Below are positions 56,861 to 64,000 of a DNA stretch of 64,000 bases, piece after piece; positions within the stretch are counted from its first letter, which is position 1; each line of letters begins with the position of its first letter. This DNA comes from Rhodobacter viridis (GTDB taxonomy: Bacteria > Pseudomonadota > Alphaproteobacteria > Rhodobacterales > Rhodobacteraceae). The DNA is taken from positions 39,528 to 103,527 of the forward strand of contig NZ_QJTK01000003.1 in the NCBI RefSeq assembly GCF_003217355.1. The letters are read 5' to 3'. The notes under the pieces are model-generated. The model was not told the DNA's origin, did no database searches, and saw nothing but the letters and a program-made list of their open reading frames with translations. The position numbers were made by a program, and so were the translations under genes.

Positions 56861-56937
56861 GGACCCGTAGCTCAGCTGGATAGAGCATCAGACTACGAAT
56901 CTGAGGGTCGGGCGTTCGAATCGCTCCGGGTCCGCCA
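56861..56937 (+). tRNA. tRNA-Arg (anticodon ACG)
   Basis: A complete 77-base cloverleaf with encoded CCA. Acceptor stem GGACCCG/CGGGTCC; anticodon stem CAGA/TCTG around CTACGAA gives ACG. Its 3' end faces the integrase gene, so it is the likely attachment site of the element that follows. Confidence 0.97.
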
Positions 56938-56958
56938 CTTCCTCAAAAACTTTCTGAT

Positions 56959-57009
56959 TTGTCAGCCGCTTGCGAGGCGGTTTGTCAAACTTGTCAGCCG
57001 AGTTTGACA
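56959..57009. repeat. TGTCA repeat cluster beside tRNA-Arg (possible integrase arm sites, attL)
   Basis: TTGTCAGCCG occurs at 56959-56968 and 56991-57000; TGTCAAAC (56983-56990) and GTTTGACA (57002-57009) form an inverted repeat. Four TGTCA units in 51 bases between the tRNA 3' end and the end of the integrase gene are what arm-type sites of an attL would look like. The crossover core, expected in the 3' half of the tRNA, cannot be fixed without the other end. Confidence 0.4.
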
Positions 57010-58052
57010 GTTTCAGTTGCGCTTGTGTTCTTGTCGAGAGCGAGAATTGCCCGCTCTGCGAGGTTTTTTCGGCTGGCCGCGACAGTGTAGCGTGTCACTT
57101 CGGCCAGCGACTTGTGACCAGAGATAGCCATGATCTCGTGGGCGGTGCAGCCTGCTTCCGCAAGACGGCGGCACGTCGCCTTCCGCAGCCCGTGGGGTGA
57201 AAGACTGTCAGGCAGTTTAGCTTCCCGCACCATCGCGCGAAACCAGTTGGTGAAGCCCGCCGGGGTGAAGGGCTTCCCTTGCGCCGTCACAAGGAAGGCA
57301 AGGTTATTGAGCGGCAGTCGATCGAGGGTCGCCTTAAGCTCAGGGTGCAAGGGGATATGCACGTCCTGCCCGGTCTTCTGTTGGACGATCGACAGAACCC
57401 CGTTGCGGACATGCTGCCGCCCCATCCTCACCACGTCCGAACGCCGCTGGCCCGTATATAGCAAGAGCGACAAGGCAAGATGCGCGCGGGTGCCGGGTTT
57501 GTGCTGCGCGATGAAGGCTTCGATATGCTCTTCTTCCCAGGTCAGGAAGCCGCCCGTTTTTTCTTTGGCCTTGCGCACATCGCGAGTCGGATCGTCGCCC
57601 CGCCAGCCAAGTTCCACCGCATGTCGCATCAGAAGGTGAATCATGCGCAGCATATTATTGGCAGCCGATGGCGTCTCGGTTTTGGCGGCAACGATGCTCT
57701 GCACATGCCGCCTTTCCATGTGCGCAACGCGCTTGTCACCATGTTCGGCGCGGAAGCGTTCGATGATCCCGCGATAGGTGGCCTTCGTGGAGTCGCTCAG
57801 GCCCTTGAAGTCTGAGGTGCGATAGTAGCTCGCCACCAGTGCAGAGACGGTGCCCGGTTTGCTGCGGTCCTTGCCTATTTCGACACGTTCGCCGACCGAC
57901 GCCTTTTCATAGGCTGCCATGAACTCGGGCGACCACGGCAGGCCGGGCAAGGCGAGACGCGGAAAGCCGGGGCGGCGGTAATACCAGCGCACCTTGCCGT
58001 GTCGGTCCTCGAAGCCTTGGCAGTATTTGGGAGGTTTTCGAAGTTGTTTCAT
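56994..58052 (-). CDS. Tyrosine integrase
   Basis: A site-specific recombinase of 352 aa. Arm/core-binding N-terminal half (about residues 60-165), catalytic domain with R203 (YTGQRRSDV), K226 (QQKTGQ), H287-x2-R290 (SPHGLRK), H313 (SGHKS) and nucleophile Y322 (RYTV): the full set. It ends 57 bases from tRNA-Arg. The HTH gene lies 3 bases upstream on the same strand. Confidence 0.95.
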   Translation of the reverse strand: MKQLRKPPKYCQGFEDRHGKVRWYYRRPGFPRLALPGLPWSPEFMAAYEKASVGERVEIGKDRSKPGTVSALVASYYRTSDFKGLSDSTKATYRGIIERFRAEHGDKRVAHMERRHVQSIVAAKTETPSAANNMLRMIHLLMRHAVELGWRGDDPTRDVRKAKEKTGGFLTWEEEHIEAFIAQHKPGTRAHLALSLLLYTGQRRSDVVRMGRQHVRNGVLSIVQQKTGQDVHIPLHPELKATLDRLPLNNLAFLVTAQGKPFTPAGFTNWFRAMVREAKLPDSLSPHGLRKATCRRLAEAGCTAHEIMAISGHKSLAEVTRYTVAASRKNLAERAILALDKNTSATETVKLG

Positions 58053-58055
58053 GTT

Positions 58056-58301
58056 TCAGTCCCAATCGTTCGTTTCGGGGGCTGAATCTTCACCCGGAAG
58101 GGCGTCAAACGCCAAGTCCAAAGCGCGACAGTCCCAGATTCGCCGGGTTCCGATGCGCTTGGGGCTGGGCATTTCGCCAGCGGCAACCAGCTTGTCAAAG
58201 GTTGTGGGGCTTACACCGATGTAGCCCGCCGCCTCGACACGCGACAGCCCGCGCCGAGTCGGCGGGGCAATCGGGGAAGAGGGGCGGGCTTGAGTCTGCA
58301 T
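58056..58301 (-). CDS. AlpA-like / excisionase-type HTH protein
   Basis: An 81-aa protein with a MerR/AlpA-like winged helix: RGLSRVEAAGYIGVSPTTFDKL, then GEMPSPKRIGTRRIWD, which is the typical wing that reads PxPxRIGxRxxW. Small proteins of this kind serve as excisionase or activate integrase in P4-like elements and satellites. The ATG at 58301 is chosen; GAGG lies 11 bases upstream. Three bases before integrase, thirteen after the decoration gene. Confidence 0.8.
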   Translation of the reverse strand: MQTQARPSSPIAPPTRRGLSRVEAAGYIGVSPTTFDKLVAAGEMPSPKRIGTRRIWDCRALDLAFDALPGEDSAPETNDWD

Positions 58302-58314
58302 CTGCGGGCGAGCC

Positions 58315-58641
58315 TCAGAACCCCGACAGACGCACGCGCACGGATGCCGTGTCGGCGGGGGCGGCTTCGACAGCAACGCCCAGTTTCGTGTTGCCGCTGG
58401 CCGTGGAGGTGGCGAGCTTCGACGTTGCGTTCCAATACACGACAGCGCCCAGCGTGAAGGCATTGGCCGCGACTTTCGGCAGATCAAAGACGCCCGTAAC
58501 CACTACGTCCACCAGATCGCCCGCACCCGCGCCACCCGCCGCAATGCCGACGATATTACCCGCGATCACCACTTCATCAGACGAGACAGCGGCGGGGGCG
58601 GGAATTGTCAGGTTCGAGCCTGCTTGCATGAAGGATTTCAT
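58315..58641 (-). CDS. DUF2190-like capsid decoration protein
   Basis: A 108-aa protein, MKSFMQAGSNLTIPAPAAV..., with the glycine/alanine-rich VVIAGNIVGIAAGGAGAGDLV and TLGAVVYWNATSKLATS, matching small capsid proteins annotated DUF2190, thought to decorate or cement heads. AAAGGA precedes the ATG. Placed right after the gpW-like gene with a one-base gap. Confidence 0.8.
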   Translation of the reverse strand: MKSFMQAGSNLTIPAPAAVSSDEVVIAGNIVGIAAGGAGAGDLVDVVVTGVFDLPKVAANAFTLGAVVYWNATSKLATSTASGNTKLGVAVEAAPADTASVRVRLSGF

Positions 58642-58642
58642 C

Positions 58643-58858
58643 TTAGAGTCCTTTCGAGGTTTGAAGTCGGACAAGCGCCAGCCGCCCGCGTTGAAGCCGC
58701 GCGATTTCCGAGTCGAGCGCGGCGATTGCCCGTTCGATCTCGCCTTGCGAGCGGTAAGTGATTTCCTCGCCGTTTTGGTCGCGCAGGGTGCGGAGGCCCG
58801 AAAACCGGGCTTCCTGCAGTTTGTCGCGATATTCGCGGAGGGTTTCGACGGTCGCCAC
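58643..58858 (-). CDS. gpW-like head-tail joining protein
   Basis: A 71-aa protein close to lambda gpW in size (68). Two helices: VATVETLREYRDKLQEARFSG and YRSQGEIERAIAALDSEIARL, with the family hairpin RTLRDQNGEEITYRS between. A GTG start at 58858 has GGGAG 7 bases upstream; a TTG overlapping the capsid stop is possible. gpW seals the packaged head and prepares it for a tail, so its presence without tail genes matters. Confidence 0.82.
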   Translation of the reverse strand: MATVETLREYRDKLQEARFSGLRTLRDQNGEEITYRSQGEIERAIAALDSEIARLQRGRLALVRLQTSKGL

Positions 58859-58860
58859 GA

Positions 58861-60678
58861 TCAAGCTCCCGTGCCGTGATAGGCGCCGCGCCAATCGAGC
58901 CAACCGCAACCGAAGTCGAGCCAAGCACGGTATTTGAGTCCCAGCGTGTCCCAAGCCTCTTGGCGCTGGATCTGCACACCCTGCGCGCTGGCAAGATAAC
59001 CGTATTGGAGCGAAGGCACCGAAGCCGGATCGGCCAGCACATACCAGCCGAGTCCGGTGATGCGCGGTTCGACAACAATTTCGAGCTTCCCGGCCATCGG
59101 GTTCACGTCGCCCGAAGTCGCGGCATAGATCGCCGTAAGCGCGCGTTCCGCACCCGCTTCAAGTTCCGGCCCCACAACAAGGTATTTCGGCTTCACGGCC
59201 AGAATGGTCTTGCCGTCCAGCCCTTTGACGGTGCGCATGGCCTGCCGCGCCGCAAGAAGAGCGGAAATCGCGGCGTCAATGTCGCGAAGGTCCGTATTCG
59301 AACCCGTCACGAGGTTGCCCCGCGTGGCATGGAAGACCGCTTTGGCATCGCTCAGTTTCGGATTGCCGGTAAGCAACTTCACCAGTTCTTCGGCTTCCGT
59401 CTGGGCGGCGGCTTGCCCCATTGCGGCGGTCATGTCCCCCAAGAGCCCCAGATCGTCGTCGATCAACAGCTTCCGCGAAACATTGATCGCCCGCCCGAAG
59501 GTCTTCAGGCTCATGCTTTCGCCCGCTTCGGCGCGGCTCGTGTGCTTGAACTCGCCGTGTTCGGTCATTTCTTCAAGTCGCCCCATCTCGCCAAGACGAA
59601 TGGCCGTCGACTCTTTGAAGTTCGGAAGCACCCGTTGCCGCGCGAGCGCCTTCAGCGGCGACTCCGCGGCTTGATATGCCTGCGCCGCAACCTTGTTCAT
59701 GGCATTCGAGACGAGAGAGGGGAAATCACTCGTCCCCATCGCGCTACGTTGCAGGATTTCATCTTGCGTCATGCCGCGCACCGACACGCCAGCCCGCGCA
59801 AGGGCTTCCCGCGCGTGATCAAGAAGCGACATGCCGACAAACTCACGCGCGGCGGCGGGCAGTTCGCCCCCGGCCATGCGGAATGCCAGCGCATCGGCGG
59901 CGCGGGTCTGCACTTGCGCCGGGTCGTCGTGCGAACGGGTGACACGGATTCGCGGGGCCTGGCGCTTCAGCAACTCTTCGCGCGCAGCGGCGCGAATGGC
60001 GTCTTCATCCAGATCGGTTGCGGCCATGCCTTCGGCCCATTCTTCGGTAAGGCCGCACGCGGAGCGGATCGCTTCCACGAAATCGGGCCGGGTTTCGGTA
60101 TCGAGGGGCATCGTTGCGCTTCTCCTTTGAATAATGGCGCGATGATCGGCGGGGATGGGAGTCAGGCTGACTTCGAGAAGCCGCCACCTTGTTGCGGTCT
60201 TGGTGCGTTGCCGCGTGTCGGGGTCGAAGGACTCGGCCCATTCGAGAACCTGATAGCCCGCGCTCACATGGCGCAGCACGCCATCCCGCACGCGCTCGAA
60301 AAGCGGTTCAATGTCGGTTGCCATGCCCAGCCGCAGCGATGCCGTCACGGCGCTGCCATCGACGGCGATTCCGAAAGCGCGCCCGACAGTTTCCCGCGCG
60401 CTGGCCCGGTGATCGGTCAGAAGCGGCAGATCGGTTGCGGCGTCGAATTGCAGCCCTGCGGGGTCAAGCACTTCGAGAAACGGCCCTTTGGAGTCCTTGC
60501 GGGTGACGGGCGTGTTGGTGGCGATCACGGCGCGAAAGGTGCGATCCTCTTCCATGTCACCGACACGCGGCGCAGTGCGGGTCAGAAAGTCCCCGGACGT
60601 GGCATCAGCGGGGGCAAGGCGGGGGTTCGGGGTGATCTTGGAAGCCCGCGCAGGGTTTCCGGTGAGTCGAATGTTCAT
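58861..60678 (-). CDS. Prohead protease-major capsid protein fusion
   Basis: A 605-aa two-domain protein. Residues about 40-185 form an HK97-type (U35) prohead protease with H90 in LPLLTDHRAS and S139 in RHVSAGYQV as catalytic candidates. Residues about 300-605 resemble Mu gpT-type major head protein (FPSLVSNAMNKVAAQAYQ, SRKLLIDDDLGLLGDM, WDTLGLKYRAWLDFGCG). The fusion lets the protease free the capsid domain during maturation. Overlaps the portal gene by 4 bases. Confidence 0.85.
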   Translation of the reverse strand: MNIRLTGNPARASKITPNPRLAPADATSGDFLTRTAPRVGDMEEDRTFRAVIATNTPVTRKDSKGPFLEVLDPAGLQFDAATDLPLLTDHRASARETVGRAFGIAVDGSAVTASLRLGMATDIEPLFERVRDGVLRHVSAGYQVLEWAESFDPDTRQRTKTATRWRLLEVSLTPIPADHRAIIQRRSATMPLDTETRPDFVEAIRSACGLTEEWAEGMAATDLDEDAIRAAAREELLKRQAPRIRVTRSHDDPAQVQTRAADALAFRMAGGELPAAAREFVGMSLLDHAREALARAGVSVRGMTQDEILQRSAMGTSDFPSLVSNAMNKVAAQAYQAAESPLKALARQRVLPNFKESTAIRLGEMGRLEEMTEHGEFKHTSRAEAGESMSLKTFGRAINVSRKLLIDDDLGLLGDMTAAMGQAAAQTEAEELVKLLTGNPKLSDAKAVFHATRGNLVTGSNTDLRDIDAAISALLAARQAMRTVKGLDGKTILAVKPKYLVVGPELEAGAERALTAIYAATSGDVNPMAGKLEIVVEPRITGLGWYVLADPASVPSLQYGYLASAQGVQIQRQEAWDTLGLKYRAWLDFGCGWLDWRGAYHGTGA

Positions 60679-62033
60679 GCTTTGATGCCCTTTTGTTCAA
60701 CTGAATGTTGAGTAAGGTTGAGCCCCAGAGCGGACTCGCGCGCCCGATCGGCCGCAATATCGGCGTCGATCGCGGCAACGTCATAACCAAGCTGCGCAAC
60801 GGCCATGCGGCGGCTGATGAGCCCCATATTAAGCATTTCCCGCGTTGCCTTGGCGTCAGACTCCGGGTCCACCCATTGCGGCTTCGGAAAATGCCACTCG
60901 GCCCCGCAGGTTGTTTCGGTTGCGCCCCGAAGGGTTTCGAGGGCTTGCCAGCGCGCCCAGATCCGGTTGAGAGCGGGGACAAGAAGCGTGTGCTGAATGG
61001 CTTCGATACGGGCGCGGAACTGCACCAGTGCGGTTCGGGCGCTCGAATAGTTCACACCCCGCATGTCGCCAGAAAGCAGGAACTCGGGGATTTGCAGCCC
61101 CGCCGCGATCTGCCGCAAGCTGACAGCCACCAGTTCAACGGCCTGCGCCATCTGCTGCGGTGTCGAGAACCGCACGTCATAGCCCGCAGGCAGGAAGCGC
61201 ATCACGCCCGGCTCAAGGCTCACGTCCAGCGGGTCGTTGCTGTCGAACGGCGCAGCGCCGCCCGTGCCGTTTTGGTCAATGACGAAGCCGCAGAGCATAG
61301 ACTGAATCTTCGCATTCACCTGCAGCGCGTCAATGAGCTGACAAAGCTCGTTCAGCGGCAGGATCACGGGCGCGAACCACGACAAACCGCGAGTCTGCCC
61401 CGCGCCAAGGCGGCGGAAGAGGTGAATAAGGTCTGCAGCTTCCACGCGGACGGGCGCGCGAAACCCGGTAAAGGCATCGGTCGGACGGCTGGGGCGGAAG
61501 TGGTAAGCAACAGGCTCGTCTTCGGCGGAATATTCGATCCCTGCCGCAATATAGCGCCCGTCATGCAGTTCTACGCTATAGGACTCGTCCAACTGTTCGG
61601 CGGGAACATGCTGCAACCGCAATGTACCGTCTTCGTTGGCTCGCATGACCAGCAGGGCTTCGCCATCCGTCACAAGCGCATCGGCAACTTCGGTCAGAAG
61701 CGCCGCGAAATCGACGCGCGCCGCCCAATCGGCAAAGGCGGCATCACAGGCGGCACGGCTGGCCTCGTCTTCGCTCGTGCTGGCCGCGGTGACGCCATAG
61801 CCCACCAGCGCGGTTTTAAGGATCTCAGCAGCATTCCCGGCAGTCGGATCGTTGAAGCGCAAGTGACGCGCGCGGCCCCGAACCTGCGAAGCCCCTGCCA
61901 GCACCTCCGCCCCGGTCGTGCCGAAGGCGGGCGTGTTATTCCAGCGTTTGCCCGAAGCCCCTTCGAGCATCCGAAGGGCGGGTGCAACGGGCTTTTCGCG
62001 GGTGAAGAGACGAGGCCAGCGCAAAGCGTTCAC
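60675..62033 (-). CDS. Phage portal protein, lambda type
   Basis: The 12-subunit portal through which DNA enters the head; 452 aa. N-terminal RLFTREKPVAP, RARHLRFNDPTAGNAAEILKT, the central DLIHLFRRLGAGQTRGLSWFAPVI and QIAAGLQIPEFLLSGDMRGVNYSSAR are hallmarks of the lambda gpB family. Coupled by 4-base overlaps to the capsid gene and to the upstream unknown gene. Confidence 0.92.
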   Translation of the reverse strand: MNALRWPRLFTREKPVAPALRMLEGASGKRWNNTPAFGTTGAEVLAGASQVRGRARHLRFNDPTAGNAAEILKTALVGYGVTAASTSEDEASRAACDAAFADWAARVDFAALLTEVADALVTDGEALLVMRANEDGTLRLQHVPAEQLDESYSVELHDGRYIAAGIEYSAEDEPVAYHFRPSRPTDAFTGFRAPVRVEAADLIHLFRRLGAGQTRGLSWFAPVILPLNELCQLIDALQVNAKIQSMLCGFVIDQNGTGGAAPFDSNDPLDVSLEPGVMRFLPAGYDVRFSTPQQMAQAVELVAVSLRQIAAGLQIPEFLLSGDMRGVNYSSARTALVQFRARIEAIQHTLLVPALNRIWARWQALETLRGATETTCGAEWHFPKPQWVDPESDAKATREMLNMGLISRRMAVAQLGYDVAAIDADIAADRARESALGLNLTQHSVEQKGIKA

Positions 62034-62575
62034 TCCTGCCCGAAGAGGGCCGAGAAGATCGGCTGCACAAGGGTCGTGACGGGGAACAAGTTTGTCTGAG
62101 TGATAACAAACAGGTTGTTTTCCGCGTCGAAAGTGGCGAACTGCGGGTTGATATTCAGATCAACCCATTTACCCATTTTTGCGCAGGTCTGTTCCCAAGG
62201 GTGGGAAAGAATGTCGAAGCGGATAAATACGCCTTCCCCCGCCATAATGGCATTGAGGTGTGCTTCAAACGCCGGATAGCCTTGAGTTTTACTGAATCCA
62301 ATCCCAATGTCCCGCAAGTCTCGGTTGATCGCCTCAATCTGCCCGGTGGAGCCGCCATTAAGGCTAATCGTAATGGCAACAACTGCCGCAGCGATGTCCG
62401 CGGCGGAATACTGGATTTCTCGGCCTTGCGAACGATGAGAGGCGGTAAGGATCAACCCACGGTCGCGCATGGTGCGCGCTCGGGAATAGAGCCGGTCGCG
62501 TTCTTCGTCGTCCTTCCCTCGGAGGGTGGCGATGGCATCCGTGATCTGGCGCAATGTGGCGGTGTGGTCGGTCAT
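62030..62575 (-). CDS. Unknown protein encoded before portal
   Basis: A 181-aa protein from ATG 62575 (MTDHTATLRQITDAIATLRG). The first half looks helical and winged-helix-like (ERDRLYSRARTMRDRGLILTASHRSQGREIQYSAADIAAAVVAI), reminiscent of MerR-type DNA binding. The second half ends in a hydrophobic NNLFVITQTNLFPVTTLVQ. I recognise no family. It overlaps portal by 4 bases and starts 31 bases from a 24-bp inverted repeat, so it may be a regulator of the operon it opens, or a terminase small subunit-like protein. Confidence 0.65.
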   Translation of the reverse strand: MTDHTATLRQITDAIATLRGKDDEERDRLYSRARTMRDRGLILTASHRSQGREIQYSAADIAAAVVAITISLNGGSTGQIEAINRDLRDIGIGFSKTQGYPAFEAHLNAIMAGEGVFIRFDILSHPWEQTCAKMGKWVDLNINPQFATFDAENNLFVITQTNLFPVTTLVQPIFSALFGQE

Positions 62576-62605
62576 CGAAGGTTGTCCCAGGGTGATGATT
62601 TCGAA

Positions 62606-62684
62606 TGACTGGAAGGTAGCACCTGCGTCGAGAGGACGCAAGAAGAACTTGCTTCCGTTTGACGCAGGTGCTACCTTCCAGTCA
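62606..62684. repeat. 24-bp perfect inverted repeat with inner hairpin
   Basis: The arms are 62606-62629 and 62661-62684; the left begins TGACTGGAAGGTAGC and its reverse complement closes the right arm. The 31-base spacer holds a second hairpin, GCAAG-AAGAA-CTTGC (62638-62652). No T run follows on either strand and no target duplication is evident. It lies between divergent genes. Confidence 0.95.
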
Positions 62685-62768
62685 CCAAAGTTCACTTGTC
62701 ATCGTTGGGGGCGAGCAATCGCCCCGATCAAAGAACACGGGGAAGACAGGCCCCGCCCCGATTGGGGG

Positions 62769-62807
62769 AAGCCCCGGCTGCGTCCTCCACCGCTGCCGGG
62801 GCTTTTG
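62769..62807 (+). terminator. Terminator-shaped hairpin directly before the 62824 gene
   Basis: AAGCCCCGGC (62769-62778) pairs with GCCGGGGCTT (62795-62804), 16-base loop, then TTGTTTT. The ribosome binding site of the next gene (AGGAG) follows at once, so it may act as an attenuator or block read-through into the plus-strand genes. Confidence 0.75.
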
Positions 62808-62823
62808 TTTTAGGAGTCATCGC

Positions 62824-63090
62824 GTGCCGACAGAAATCATCATCGAACCGCATTTTAGATGGAACACGCGCCGCTTGCCCCCACCGCCGCCCGGCCTTGA
62901 GGGCCGCAAGCTGGCCGAATGGGCGCGCGGCTGGCGCAGCCTGCACAAATGGTTCCGATACCAAGTATCAGAGGACGAACGCTACTGGCTGTCTGTCTGC
63001 GAGGTTATCGGGCTGGCTGCCACGGAAGCCTTGCTTGGCGAGAGGGATGAGTTCAGAATCGACTCGCTTGGCAACTGGCCCGATCTGTGA
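62824..63090 (+). CDS. Small unknown protein, element cargo
   Basis: An 88-aa protein from GTG 62824 (VPTEIIIEPHFRWNTRRLPP), AGGAG 7 bases upstream. Proline-rich PPPPPGLEGRKLAEWARGWRSLHKW, then a helical end (SVCEVIGLAATEALLGERDE). No family recognised. Opposite in strand to the capsid operon and first of three plus-strand genes. Confidence 0.6.
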   Translation: MPTEIIIEPHFRWNTRRLPPPPPGLEGRKLAEWARGWRSLHKWFRYQVSEDERYWLSVCEVIGLAATEALLGERDEFRIDSLGNWPDL

Positions 63091-63149
63091 GATAATCAAC
63101 AGGACTTATTTATATTCACTGTGAGCAATAAGCCGTCAATAGGTGCCGA

Positions 63150-63332
63150 ATGATCGAGCCGAAAATAACCTATCGAGTCGATGGACACGAATATGTGGTC
63201 GTGGAACAGGAAAGAGGAAATTATCTCTGCCGCAAGGTTGGGGAAGAGGGTGGAAAGGTGTATTATTTCAATAGTTCCACTCACGAAGGGCCCTTTGACG
63301 ATCCGCCCGTTAATATCGGTGATTGGCTTTAG
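63150..63332 (+). CDS. Small unknown protein, element cargo
   Basis: A 60-aa protein, MIEPKITYRVDGHEYVVVEQ..., probably beta-rich, ending PPVNIGDWL. Base composition is clearly more AT-rich than the surrounding capsid genes, a sign of separate origin. Start ATG at 63150 with only a weak AGGTG upstream. Function unknown. Confidence 0.5.
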   Translation: MIEPKITYRVDGHEYVVVEQERGNYLCRKVGEEGGKVYYFNSSTHEGPFDDPPVNIGDWL

Positions 63333-63383
63333 TCTAATAGTTATTGCTTAATAATTGAGAAAATTGAAGGCGTGTGGAGGGAA

Positions 63384-63620
63384 ATGGACGAATCAGACTA
63401 TAGCAATGCAGCAGATAGATTGCTTGGGGAAACGCAAGCTCGAATGGATTTCGAAGAGTTCATACGGCATGTCCGTTTGACCACTGATGATGAGGTTAGC
63501 CTTTCTGGACGACTTCTTGACATGATCGGTGATGCATTTTATCGACCCCCATATGAAAATTACACGAATGAGTTTTTGCGTCAAATTGCTCTTGCTGTCG
63601 TGCGCGCTAATGTCAGATAA
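63384..63620 (+). CDS. Small unknown protein, element cargo
   Basis: A 78-aa acidic protein (MDESDYSNAADRLLGETQARMDFEEF), mostly helical, AT-rich like its neighbour. GGAGGG lies very close to the ATG at 63384; a GTG at 63372 is the alternative. It ends one base from the terminase stop, convergent with it. Function unknown. Confidence 0.55.
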   Translation: MDESDYSNAADRLLGETQARMDFEEFIRHVRLTTDDEVSLSGRLLDMIGDAFYRPPYENYTNEFLRQIALAVVRANVR

Positions 63621-63621
63621 A

Positions 63622-64000
63622 TTACCCACCCAACCACTTTGATTTAACCACGGTCGGCGCCTTTCGGGGCGCCGCTGCACTTGCAAGCTCTGCCGCCCGC
63701 AGGTCTTCACGTTGCCCGATGATCTGTCGCACGGCGAGCGCGTAAACGGTGGCGTCGAGCGTTTCGGCGCGCTTGCCTTTGATACGCTCGAACCGGGCTT
63801 CGGGCTTGCCGCGAACATAACGCACAACGCGCCGCTCCGAGGTCAGTTGCTCGAAATAGATCGGTTGCAGGGCTTCTCCGAACCGAATCCCCTGCGTTCT
63901 TGCGAGCCGCGCAAACAGAGCGGATTTCGCGGCGTCGACTCCCACAAGCCAAAGGTGTTGCCCCTTGGTTCCCGAACGCTGGAAGACCGGGCGCGAGAAG
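63622..64000 (-). CDS. Terminase large subunit, GpA type, C-terminal part (5' end beyond window)
   Basis: 126 codons of the nuclease end of a packaging terminase are visible; the frame is open to the window edge. RPVFQRSGTKGQHLWLVGVD is followed by AAKSALFARLA, then FGEALQPIYFEQLTSERRV and EARFERIKGKRAETLDATVYALA: the order of the lambda gpA family (VGVDxAK, FeqLtsErr, EtLDc-vYAlA). The ATPase half lies outside. Ends KSKWLGG. Confidence 0.87.
   Translation of the reverse strand, partial: FSRPVFQRSGTKGQHLWLVGVDAAKSALFARLARTQGIRFGEALQPIYFEQLTSERRVVRYVRGKPEARFERIKGKRAETLDATVYALAVRQIIGQREDLRAAELASAAAPRKAPTVVKSKWLGG

Follow-up and report, generated by a model that had tools for sequence, protein, structure and literature searches.

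Among described phage satellites, the closest to the locus considered here are the capsid-forming phage-inducible chromosomal islands (cf-PICIs). In the published descriptions drawn on here, they encode the major capsid protein, a protease, a portal and a head-tail connector (PMC10690885), use an encoded HNH endonuclease for packaging (PMC10690885, PMC13230959), carry an alpA homologue and a Pri-Rep replication gene (PMC10448857) as well as a Stl-like regulator (PMC13230959), and PF05065 is the family that was used for 900 published cf-PICI capsids (PMC13230959). The host list given in PMC10803314, which is qualified by 'primarily', does not include Alphaproteobacteria. The Streptomyces satellites MulchRoom and MiniFlayer are likewise described as encoding capsid formation and packaging genes (PMC10690885). 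The element addressed here is integrated in the genome of Rhodobacter viridis (3.87 Mb, 99.98% complete) and begins within a stretch of 64,000 nucleotides, hereafter the window, located on its 344-kb contig (C3; NZ_QJTK01000003.1, positions 39,528 to 103,527). It is very probably an intact capsid-forming phage satellite, which would package its own DNA in its own head and use the tail of a helper phage.

The end of the window splits this element, and its remainder was read in the genome sequence past position 64,000, up to the second tRNA-Arg repeat as the first-pass annotation of the window had advised. The inserted element is 11,782 bp long and lies between two exact 22-bp repeats of the end of a tRNA-Arg(ACG) gene. 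The attL copy, GCTCCGGGTCCGCCACTTCCTC, consists of the last 15 bp of this gene plus 7 bp; the attR copy starts 127 bp past the start codon of the replication gene, and the host asparaginase gene comes next after it. A virtual empty site made by joining both flanks aligns unbroken, with 92–94% identity over 438–442 bp, to three genomes of the same genus, in which tRNA-Arg(ACG) adjoins the asparaginase flank and the site is unoccupied. An Rfam scan at gathering scores found the tRNA only, and the whole element had no megablast match in phage and plasmid collections. The same element is stored in IMG/VR as an 11,585-bp contig with an identical TerL; since such contigs are stored there as viruses, they may be miscounted as incomplete phage genomes.

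The element is a discrete insertion encoding an integrase, replication, terminase, portal, protease-capsid, gpW and cement proteins, in which no tail or lysis gene was recognised, the latter among the domain and PHROG matches of its proteins. On the minus strand, the order of transcription is replication protein, a conserved DNA site, TerS, TerL, a cargo slot, a regulator, portal, protease-capsid fusion, gpW, cement, an AlpA-like helix-turn-helix (HTH) protein and integrase, followed by attL and the tRNA gene (Table 1). All genes named in the first-pass annotation were recovered on this strand, with the overlaps or gaps of at most 13 bp that it had claimed, and the domain matches of the element are far above chance. 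For the gpW-like call made in that annotation, support comes from comparing profiles with those of four phage gpW proteins (hhalign 97.8%, E 1e-12); by sequence, the top solved structure is lambda gpW (1hyw), at an E value of only 0.038.

Like cf-PICIs, the element is small and integrated and carries int, an AlpA-like gene, a primase-type replication gene, TerS and TerL, portal, protease, capsid and a head-tail adaptor, and no tail genes. Both the cf-PICI head set (capsid, protease, portal, head-tail connector) and the trait of having its own TerS and TerL are therefore present, and so are alpA, Pri-Rep and integrase, as AlpA/excisionase-type PHROGs, PriCT_2 with AAA_25 and PF00589, respectively. 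Unlike the PF05065 capsids of cf-PICIs, however, its capsid belongs to PF25209/phrog_4523 and is fused to the protease; its Pfam matches up to E 1 are PF25209, PF10124 and PF04586, PF05065 being absent. The element also differs from cf-PICIs by its GpA/Nu1 terminase and its predicted MerR-type regulator. Neither the 10 core proteins nor three small open reading frames (ORFs) have a Pfam match to an HNH family, the TerL having a GpA nuclease domain. No Stl-like repressor is recognised either: no repressor-type Pfam domain scores above cut-off in the 10 core proteins, a MerR-type regulator being predicted instead, although the three small ORFs are without assignment. Of the initial proposal of a cf-PICI, the capsid-forming satellite with a cf-PICI-like gene set was thus retained, whereas the capsid family and the HNH nuclease did not agree with it. 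Because of these two differences, the element is called a member of a cf-PICI-like, separately evolved satellite family, which is set apart from cf-PICIs by their descriptions, not by sequence.

This family was assembled from loci showing similarity to satellite TerLs or to the capsid of the window element. TerL-based scans confirmed 198 genome loci and 441 viral loci as relatives, the best 80 of each being analysed, and a capsid search of 248 genomes of the same bacterial family gave matches in 62, distant capsids among them. Seventy-seven loci have a direct-repeat pair that satisfies a length rule (minimum 14 bp at a tRNA or tmRNA and 17 bp elsewhere). Once L118, which has a different gene order, and copies with identical TerL are removed, there remain 71 distinct repeat-bounded elements, the window element included, of 9,725–13,234 bp (median 11,979), 'distinct' meaning that the last 400 TerL residues differ and some of the 71 being near-copies. 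Inclusion required terL, portal, cap, int and a span of 8–20 kb; beyond these genes, gpW is present in 70/71, terS in 69/71 (no match in the other two) and cement in 60/71. The order rep-terS-terL-portal-cap-int is found in 45 elements, and 24 others show the same order without a match to the rep model, some of them with another primase or replication initiator. The repeats overlap a tRNA or tmRNA in 57/71, involving many different tRNA genes and also tmRNA genes.

All hosts of relatives that are named to class are Alphaproteobacteria. The families found among 77 rows of the TerL tree described below, some of which are named to phylum only or are viral contigs without host, include Paracoccaceae, Roseobacteraceae, Sphingomonadaceae, Erythrobacteraceae, Caulobacteraceae, Nitrobacteraceae, Rhizobiaceae, Brucellaceae, Methylopilaceae, Stappiaceae and Acetobacteraceae. 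TerL matches of at least 45% identity occur in 4/385 genomes sampled across the class and 8/398 across the phylum, all in this same class (each count includes the element's own genome, and one match is partial); the other TerL matches listed in these samples reach at most 41%. A literature search, with the founding cf-PICI paper and the SatelliteFinder survey outside its reach, met no description of this satellite family.

Among phage records, 745 match the TerL, the best-ranked being 36% identical and all being below 60%; among plasmids, pBEN of Paracoccus versutus carries a member of the family (52.6%), the next among the matches listed being at 35.6%. In a quick tree of 94 TerLs, with SH-aLRT support only, 12 references and L039 included as the longer piece of its broken terL, the 77 satellite rows (the 71 elements and six with permuted gene order) all lie on one side of a branch of length 1.36 with an SH-aLRT of 100; that side holds neither any of the 12 phage or plasmid references nor any of five 'type II' rows. 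Compared with L068/L069, the two closest relatives compared, the latter from the environmental strain Gemmobacter aquatilis DSM 3857, dN/dS is 0.098/0.091 for terL, 0.117/0.259 for portal, 0.165/0.161 for cap, 0.118/0.115 for int and 0.238/0.263 for terS, ratios that are rough because most NG86 dS values are above 1 (relative to L072, terL dS is saturated). Judging from these ratios, terL, portal, cap and int are under purifying selection.

These data bear on the alternative offered by the first-pass annotation, a tailless remnant, i.e. an ordinary lambda-like prophage in decay after the loss of its tail and lysis genes. A partial deletion would indeed leave head genes without a tail, and among the relatives terL is broken in L039 and the capsid gene is split in L041. 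However, size, order and repeat boundaries are common to the 71 distinct elements, which occupy many tRNA sites, their TerLs form one clade that sits on a long stem and includes no phage reference, and the reading frames of the window element are open, with a dN/dS of 0.09–0.26 in its main genes. Because of the empty site, the 71 similar elements and this selection, a decaying remnant is considered very unlikely and was rejected.

Tail genes were sought in the 71 elements by comparing 74 tail and neck proteins of six phages with 7,438 ORFs. The matches are 60 cement proteins, the reference set also holding cement, and one other gene, a homologue of the RcKemmy minor-tail protein (DUF6441) in L120. 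The window element has no tail gene in this screen nor among its Pfam or PHROG matches, and no family described as tail is found among the 25 most frequent of the 72 PHROG families matched by the 150 longest accessory ORFs. When all 195 loci are read, a non-cement tail or neck match is found in 10. Tail genes of other phage types lie beside some elements, Pyei1-like ones to the left of the L103 element and CRP-823-like ones to the left of rep in L074; these are candidates for neighbouring helper prophages.

An element without tail genes might also be an autonomous virus, either tailless or with a minimal tail made from unrecognised small genes. Replication, packaging and head genes are present, and ORFs without family remain. 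Nevertheless, the non-core DNA has a median of 3.0 kb per element (range 1.2–5.5) and its ORFs differ between members, no lysis gene is recognised and the gpW adaptor is kept in 70/71 elements, which suggests that something is attached to the head. This explanation is therefore thought to be highly improbable.

The helper was sought in the host genome by a search of four families, which is less than a full prophage search. The tail-tube family PF06199 has a single host match, inside a cluster resembling a gene transfer agent (GTA) at 629–642 kb of contig C1; PF10145 was not found; the only GpA terminase is that of the window element; and of two PF04860 portals, one belongs to the GTA-like cluster and the other to a 22.7-kb contig. 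The tail could be that of the host's own GTA rather than of an infecting phage. Four genes of the GTA-like cluster are 39–53% identical to tail genes of phage RcKemmy, one of which is annotated as GTA TIM barrel-like, and the RcKemmy cement protein is homologous to that of the element. On the other hand, nothing in the gene content of the element hints at the GTA, and the satellite family also occurs beyond the bacterial family of the host, e.g. in Sphingomonadaceae, Caulobacteraceae and Methylopilaceae (hosts compared by taxonomy only), so that a GTA tail is given very little credence. An ordinary tailed prophage, which the first-pass annotation had pictured as 35 kb or more with a complete tail and lysis module, is ruled out by reading on to attR, as the element ends there after less than 12 kb with no such module recognised.

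As a capsid-forming satellite, the element would work in a manner like that described for cf-PICIs. On entry or induction of a helper phage, the element would be switched on by its AlpA-like and MerR-type regulators and would then excise and replicate. The Nu1/GpA terminase would cut the element's cos-like site and fill the element's own head, gpW would close the neck from the head side, and the helper would supply the next neck protein, the tail and lysis. The element would depend on the helper for its tail and probably for the next neck protein too, since the window element has no recognised FII-like gene. The slot between terL and portal would carry interchangeable cargo, including anti-phage genes in some relatives.

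Several observations weigh against this interpretation. The tail screen is of limited reach, a cross-phage control having recovered some pairs only. A tape-measure gene is present in four related loci outside the 71 (L187, L190, L196 and L197); it directly precedes portal in the first three, and TMP_2 was tested in two of the proteins, the 74-protein screen giving no further tail match in these four loci. Single tail or neck genes occur in L120, in L226 (minor-tail homologue) and in L065, where a head-tail attachment homologue lies between terS and terL. These seven loci show that tail genes are not entirely lacking in the wider group. The four-family search identified no tailed helper in the host, and the HK97-type portal of the 22.7-kb contig C24 (L267, L268) is accompanied by no match to the reference tail set. 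Only position and conservation underlie the assignment of cos, the quick TerL tree came with a program warning of long branches among the references, and dN/dS relative to L068/L069 is higher for gpW (0.400/0.214) and alpA (0.424/0.336). By eye, contig C24 also shows a protease-capsid, an HNH-like protein and neck-like genes; this region may belong to a prophage or to a cf-PICI-like element.

Table 1. Features of the integrated element of R. viridis and of related loci; window-frame positions continue the numbering of the window past 64,000, and L numbers designate loci
Feature	Position	Strand	Evidence
tRNA-Arg(ACG), integration target, left whole	56861..56937	+	ARAGORN; Rfam tRNA
attL core, 22-bp repeat GCTCCGGGTCCGCCACTTCCTC	56923..56944	+	exact repeat; empty site in 3 genomes
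Tyrosine integrase	56994..58052	-	PF00589 (Phage_integrase) E 1e-19; phrog_1 3e-45
AlpA/excisionase-like HTH protein, 81 aa	58056..58301	-	phrog_25900 3e-11; phrog_66 excisionase and regulator 5e-7; HTH_17 8e-4, under cut-off
Head cement (decoration) protein	58315..58641	-	PF09956 (Phage_cement_2) 4e-27; phrog_122 1e-28
gpW homologue (head-tail adaptor Ad1), after capsid	58643..58858	-	phrog_2545 2e-9; hhalign to phage gpW
Prohead protease + major capsid fusion, 605 aa	58861..60678	-	phrog_4523 'major head and protease' 6e-140; PF25209 1e-47; PF04586 1e-6
Portal, lambda family	60675..62033	-	PF05136 (Phage_portal_2) 4e-67
MerR-type regulator (predicted), 'unknown gene' of the first-pass annotation	62030..62575	-	20-sequence alignment; AlphaFold2; fold match CvkR 7xn2
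Inverted repeat	62606..62684		24-bp perfect arms around a 31-nt loop; regulator start 30 bp downstream
Small ORF, 88 aa, cargo slot	62824..63090	+	
Small ORF, 60 aa, cargo slot	63150..63332	+	
Small ORF, 82 aa, cargo slot	63372..63620	+	
TerL, GpA type	63622..64000 in window, whole gene to window-frame 65379 (L003 7150-8907)	-	PF05876 (GpA_ATPase) 7e-76; PF20454 (GpA_nuclease) 1.5e-75
TerS, Nu1 type	window-frame 65369-66046	-	phrog_57 3e-24
Candidate cos site	window-frame 66067-66137		upstream of TerS
Replication protein (PriCT_2, AAA_25)	window-frame 66272-68578	-	PF13481 2e-33; PF08707 2e-8
attR, second GCTCCGGGTCCGCCACTTCCTC copy, outside window	window-frame 68705-68726 (L003 12233-12254)		exact repeat
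Tape-measure protein, 882-996 aa	L187:5071-7824, L190:120-2768, L196:9074-12064, L197:10162-13062		phrog_2335
Cas9-like, Cas1, Cas2 + CRISPR array	L168:7617-13032		IMG/VR UViG_3300010013_000013

Beyond the nature of the element itself, it appears fairly likely that these satellites are a long-separate lineage spread across the Alphaproteobacteria, which would have taken its lambda-type heads independently of cf-PICIs. This lineage would have a terminase clade and a conserved cos-like site of its own, a MerR/CvkR-like switch in the head operon and a terL-portal cargo slot with defence systems such as Pycsar and Cas9-Cas1-Cas2 with a CRISPR array. In some wider relatives, the only recognised tail gene encodes a tape-measure protein, as though they determined the length of the borrowed tail.

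Alignment of the DNA before terS in eight relatives revealed a conserved block. An iterated site model finds it in 63/71 elements at E below 0.01, always on the terS strand and with no second sites; its median position is 83 bp upstream of where the terS ORF begins (range -639 to +132, the starts of these ORFs being uncertain). The final model gives 68 hits, the model having been iterated on the same elements that it counts. A model made from half of the sites finds 30/32 held-out elements and none in reversed and shuffled sequences, in a test that split already-found sites. The consensus begins GGGTCCtTCccgngggnnngcnntgCGGGggncgcnGagCcCg, and the left end of lambda, its cos, begins gggcggcgacctcgcgggttttcgc. 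A lambda-like core (GG.?CGG.{1,8}CGCGGG) occurs in 8/63 sites versus 0.19 expected from shuffles; the site model has no hit in lambda and a weak one in phage Psul1 (E 2.4), likewise just before terS. The conserved site is probably the cos of these elements.

The gene left as unknown by the first-pass annotation is predicted to encode a MerR-type regulator. From an alignment of 20 homologues, AlphaFold2 gave a good model with a pLDDT of 81 and a pTM of 0.79. The gene is delimited from its ATG start; a longer GTG form, to 62695, would cross the inverted repeat. The top fold match is CvkR (7xn2, titled MerR-type regulator; Foldseek E 1e-3, TM 0.51/0.60, rmsd 6.3), further MerR proteins appearing in the Foldseek list only at E above 0.2, mixed with unrelated matches. 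A related gene lies directly upstream of portal in 39 of the 65 elements with a gene of that size versus 1/171 other ORFs, and in 45/65 versus 2/171 after iteration of the model, which was built partly from some of the 65 elements counted. The alpA model, for its part, matches 25/71 relatives. The 24-bp inverted repeat, in a stretch that matches its own reverse strand at 84%, is a possible operator or terminator. Long arms are found in the window element and in L162 (27 bp); as upstream arms of at least 12 bp occur in just 9/65 relatives versus 3.7% of background windows, the repeat is weak as a family feature and a general operator role across the family was not retained.

In the 71 elements, 239 of 393 accessory ORFs, many of which may be spurious, start 1.5–5.5 kb after the terL start, i.e. 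mostly between terL and portal. The accessory scans covered the 150 longest of these ORFs and the first 25 of the 72 PHROG, 27 Pfam and 81 PADLOC families. Verified slot cargo includes PycTM with PycC (Pycsar) in L216 and a GmrSD/HEC-06-type protein in L041, while seven other large cargo proteins had no match (four) or a weak match (three) in PADLOC. The slot of L168, a partial viral contig outside the 71, holds Cas2, Cas1, a Cas9-like protein that matches the last RuvC segment only incompletely, and an array of 11 repeats spaced by 64–66 bp; this CRISPR array had no match in 50,697 phage records. The slot of the window element holds just three small plus-strand ORFs, with no match above a Pfam cut-off and no PADLOC match.

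Several features of these elements have counterparts in other satellites. MulchRoom is thought to take its helper's tail, as would the present element; by their description, MulchRoom and MiniFlayer differ in having other hosts, virulent helpers, direct terminal repeats and no obvious replicase (PMC10690885). According to PMC10448857, RepA_N satellites of Escherichia coli share capsid and decoration genes without most tail genes, many of their attachment sites adjoin tRNAs and they provide a precedent for a satellite tape-measure gene, but they are reported to lack several genes present in the element, namely terminase, prohead protease, alpA, head-tail adaptor and Pri-Rep. P4-like satellites are described as having a variable slot of 1–5 kb between two conserved genes, which holds anti-phage systems (PMC9122126); unlike this hotspot, the slot of the element lies between terL and portal. 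P4 is also reported to shrink helper capsids (PMC11389934) and to encode no particle genes (PMC4490671), so the element, which has head genes, does not qualify as P4-like. Among phages, RcKemmy, Psul1 and lambda share with the element a two-subunit terminase, portal and gpW-type protein, and RcKemmy and Psul1 also share the protease-capsid fusion followed by a cement homologue. These three phages, however, have the gpW-type gene between terL and portal, and their tail genes come after the head genes, whereas in the element cargo and regulator lie between terL and portal, gpW comes after capsid, and alpA and integrase follow cement.

If this picture is correct, head-making combined with tail-stealing evolved more than once, via a different capsid and terminase type, and the second solution would include even a probable packaging site and would occur in many alphaproteobacterial families. 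The TerL clade and the site before terS would provide a compact marker set for finding such elements, and the cargo slot a defined place to look for new anti-phage systems.

Further elements were seen in passing. In the host genome, contig C15 (L063:14652-19901, L064) shows at tRNA-Cys an integrase, a Phage_capsid_4 protein, a ClpP-type protease and a replication gene, with no GpA terminase and no match to the portal of the window element; it is a possible second element. A second group of loci with a related capsid (35–41% identity in L047-L053, L056, L058, L066 and L067; also L240), of which five TerLs tested form another clade, possibly represents a second satellite type rather than ordinary prophages. 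In this group, L240 has methyltransferase and HNH genes between TerL and portal, and the downstream flank of L056, the one such flank read, holds ORFs that by eye look like antisense rRNA; against a satellite type, RcKemmy-like tail-tube and tail-chaperone pieces adjoin portal in L049. In a cyanobacterium, Stanieria cyanosphaera, the 12.4-kb linear plasmid pSTA7437.04 (L229) carries a GpA-type terminase near a telomere resolvase. Finally, a short acidic-hydrophobic motif, often near the N-terminus, is common to Rep and TerS across the family (DVFGDLWG and DVFGDLMG in Rep and DIFGDLMG in TerS of the window element). Its strict pattern occurs in 10/48 Rep and 15/69 TerS, and in none of the reversed sequences nor in TerL, portal or cap; it is perhaps a docking peptide for a common partner.

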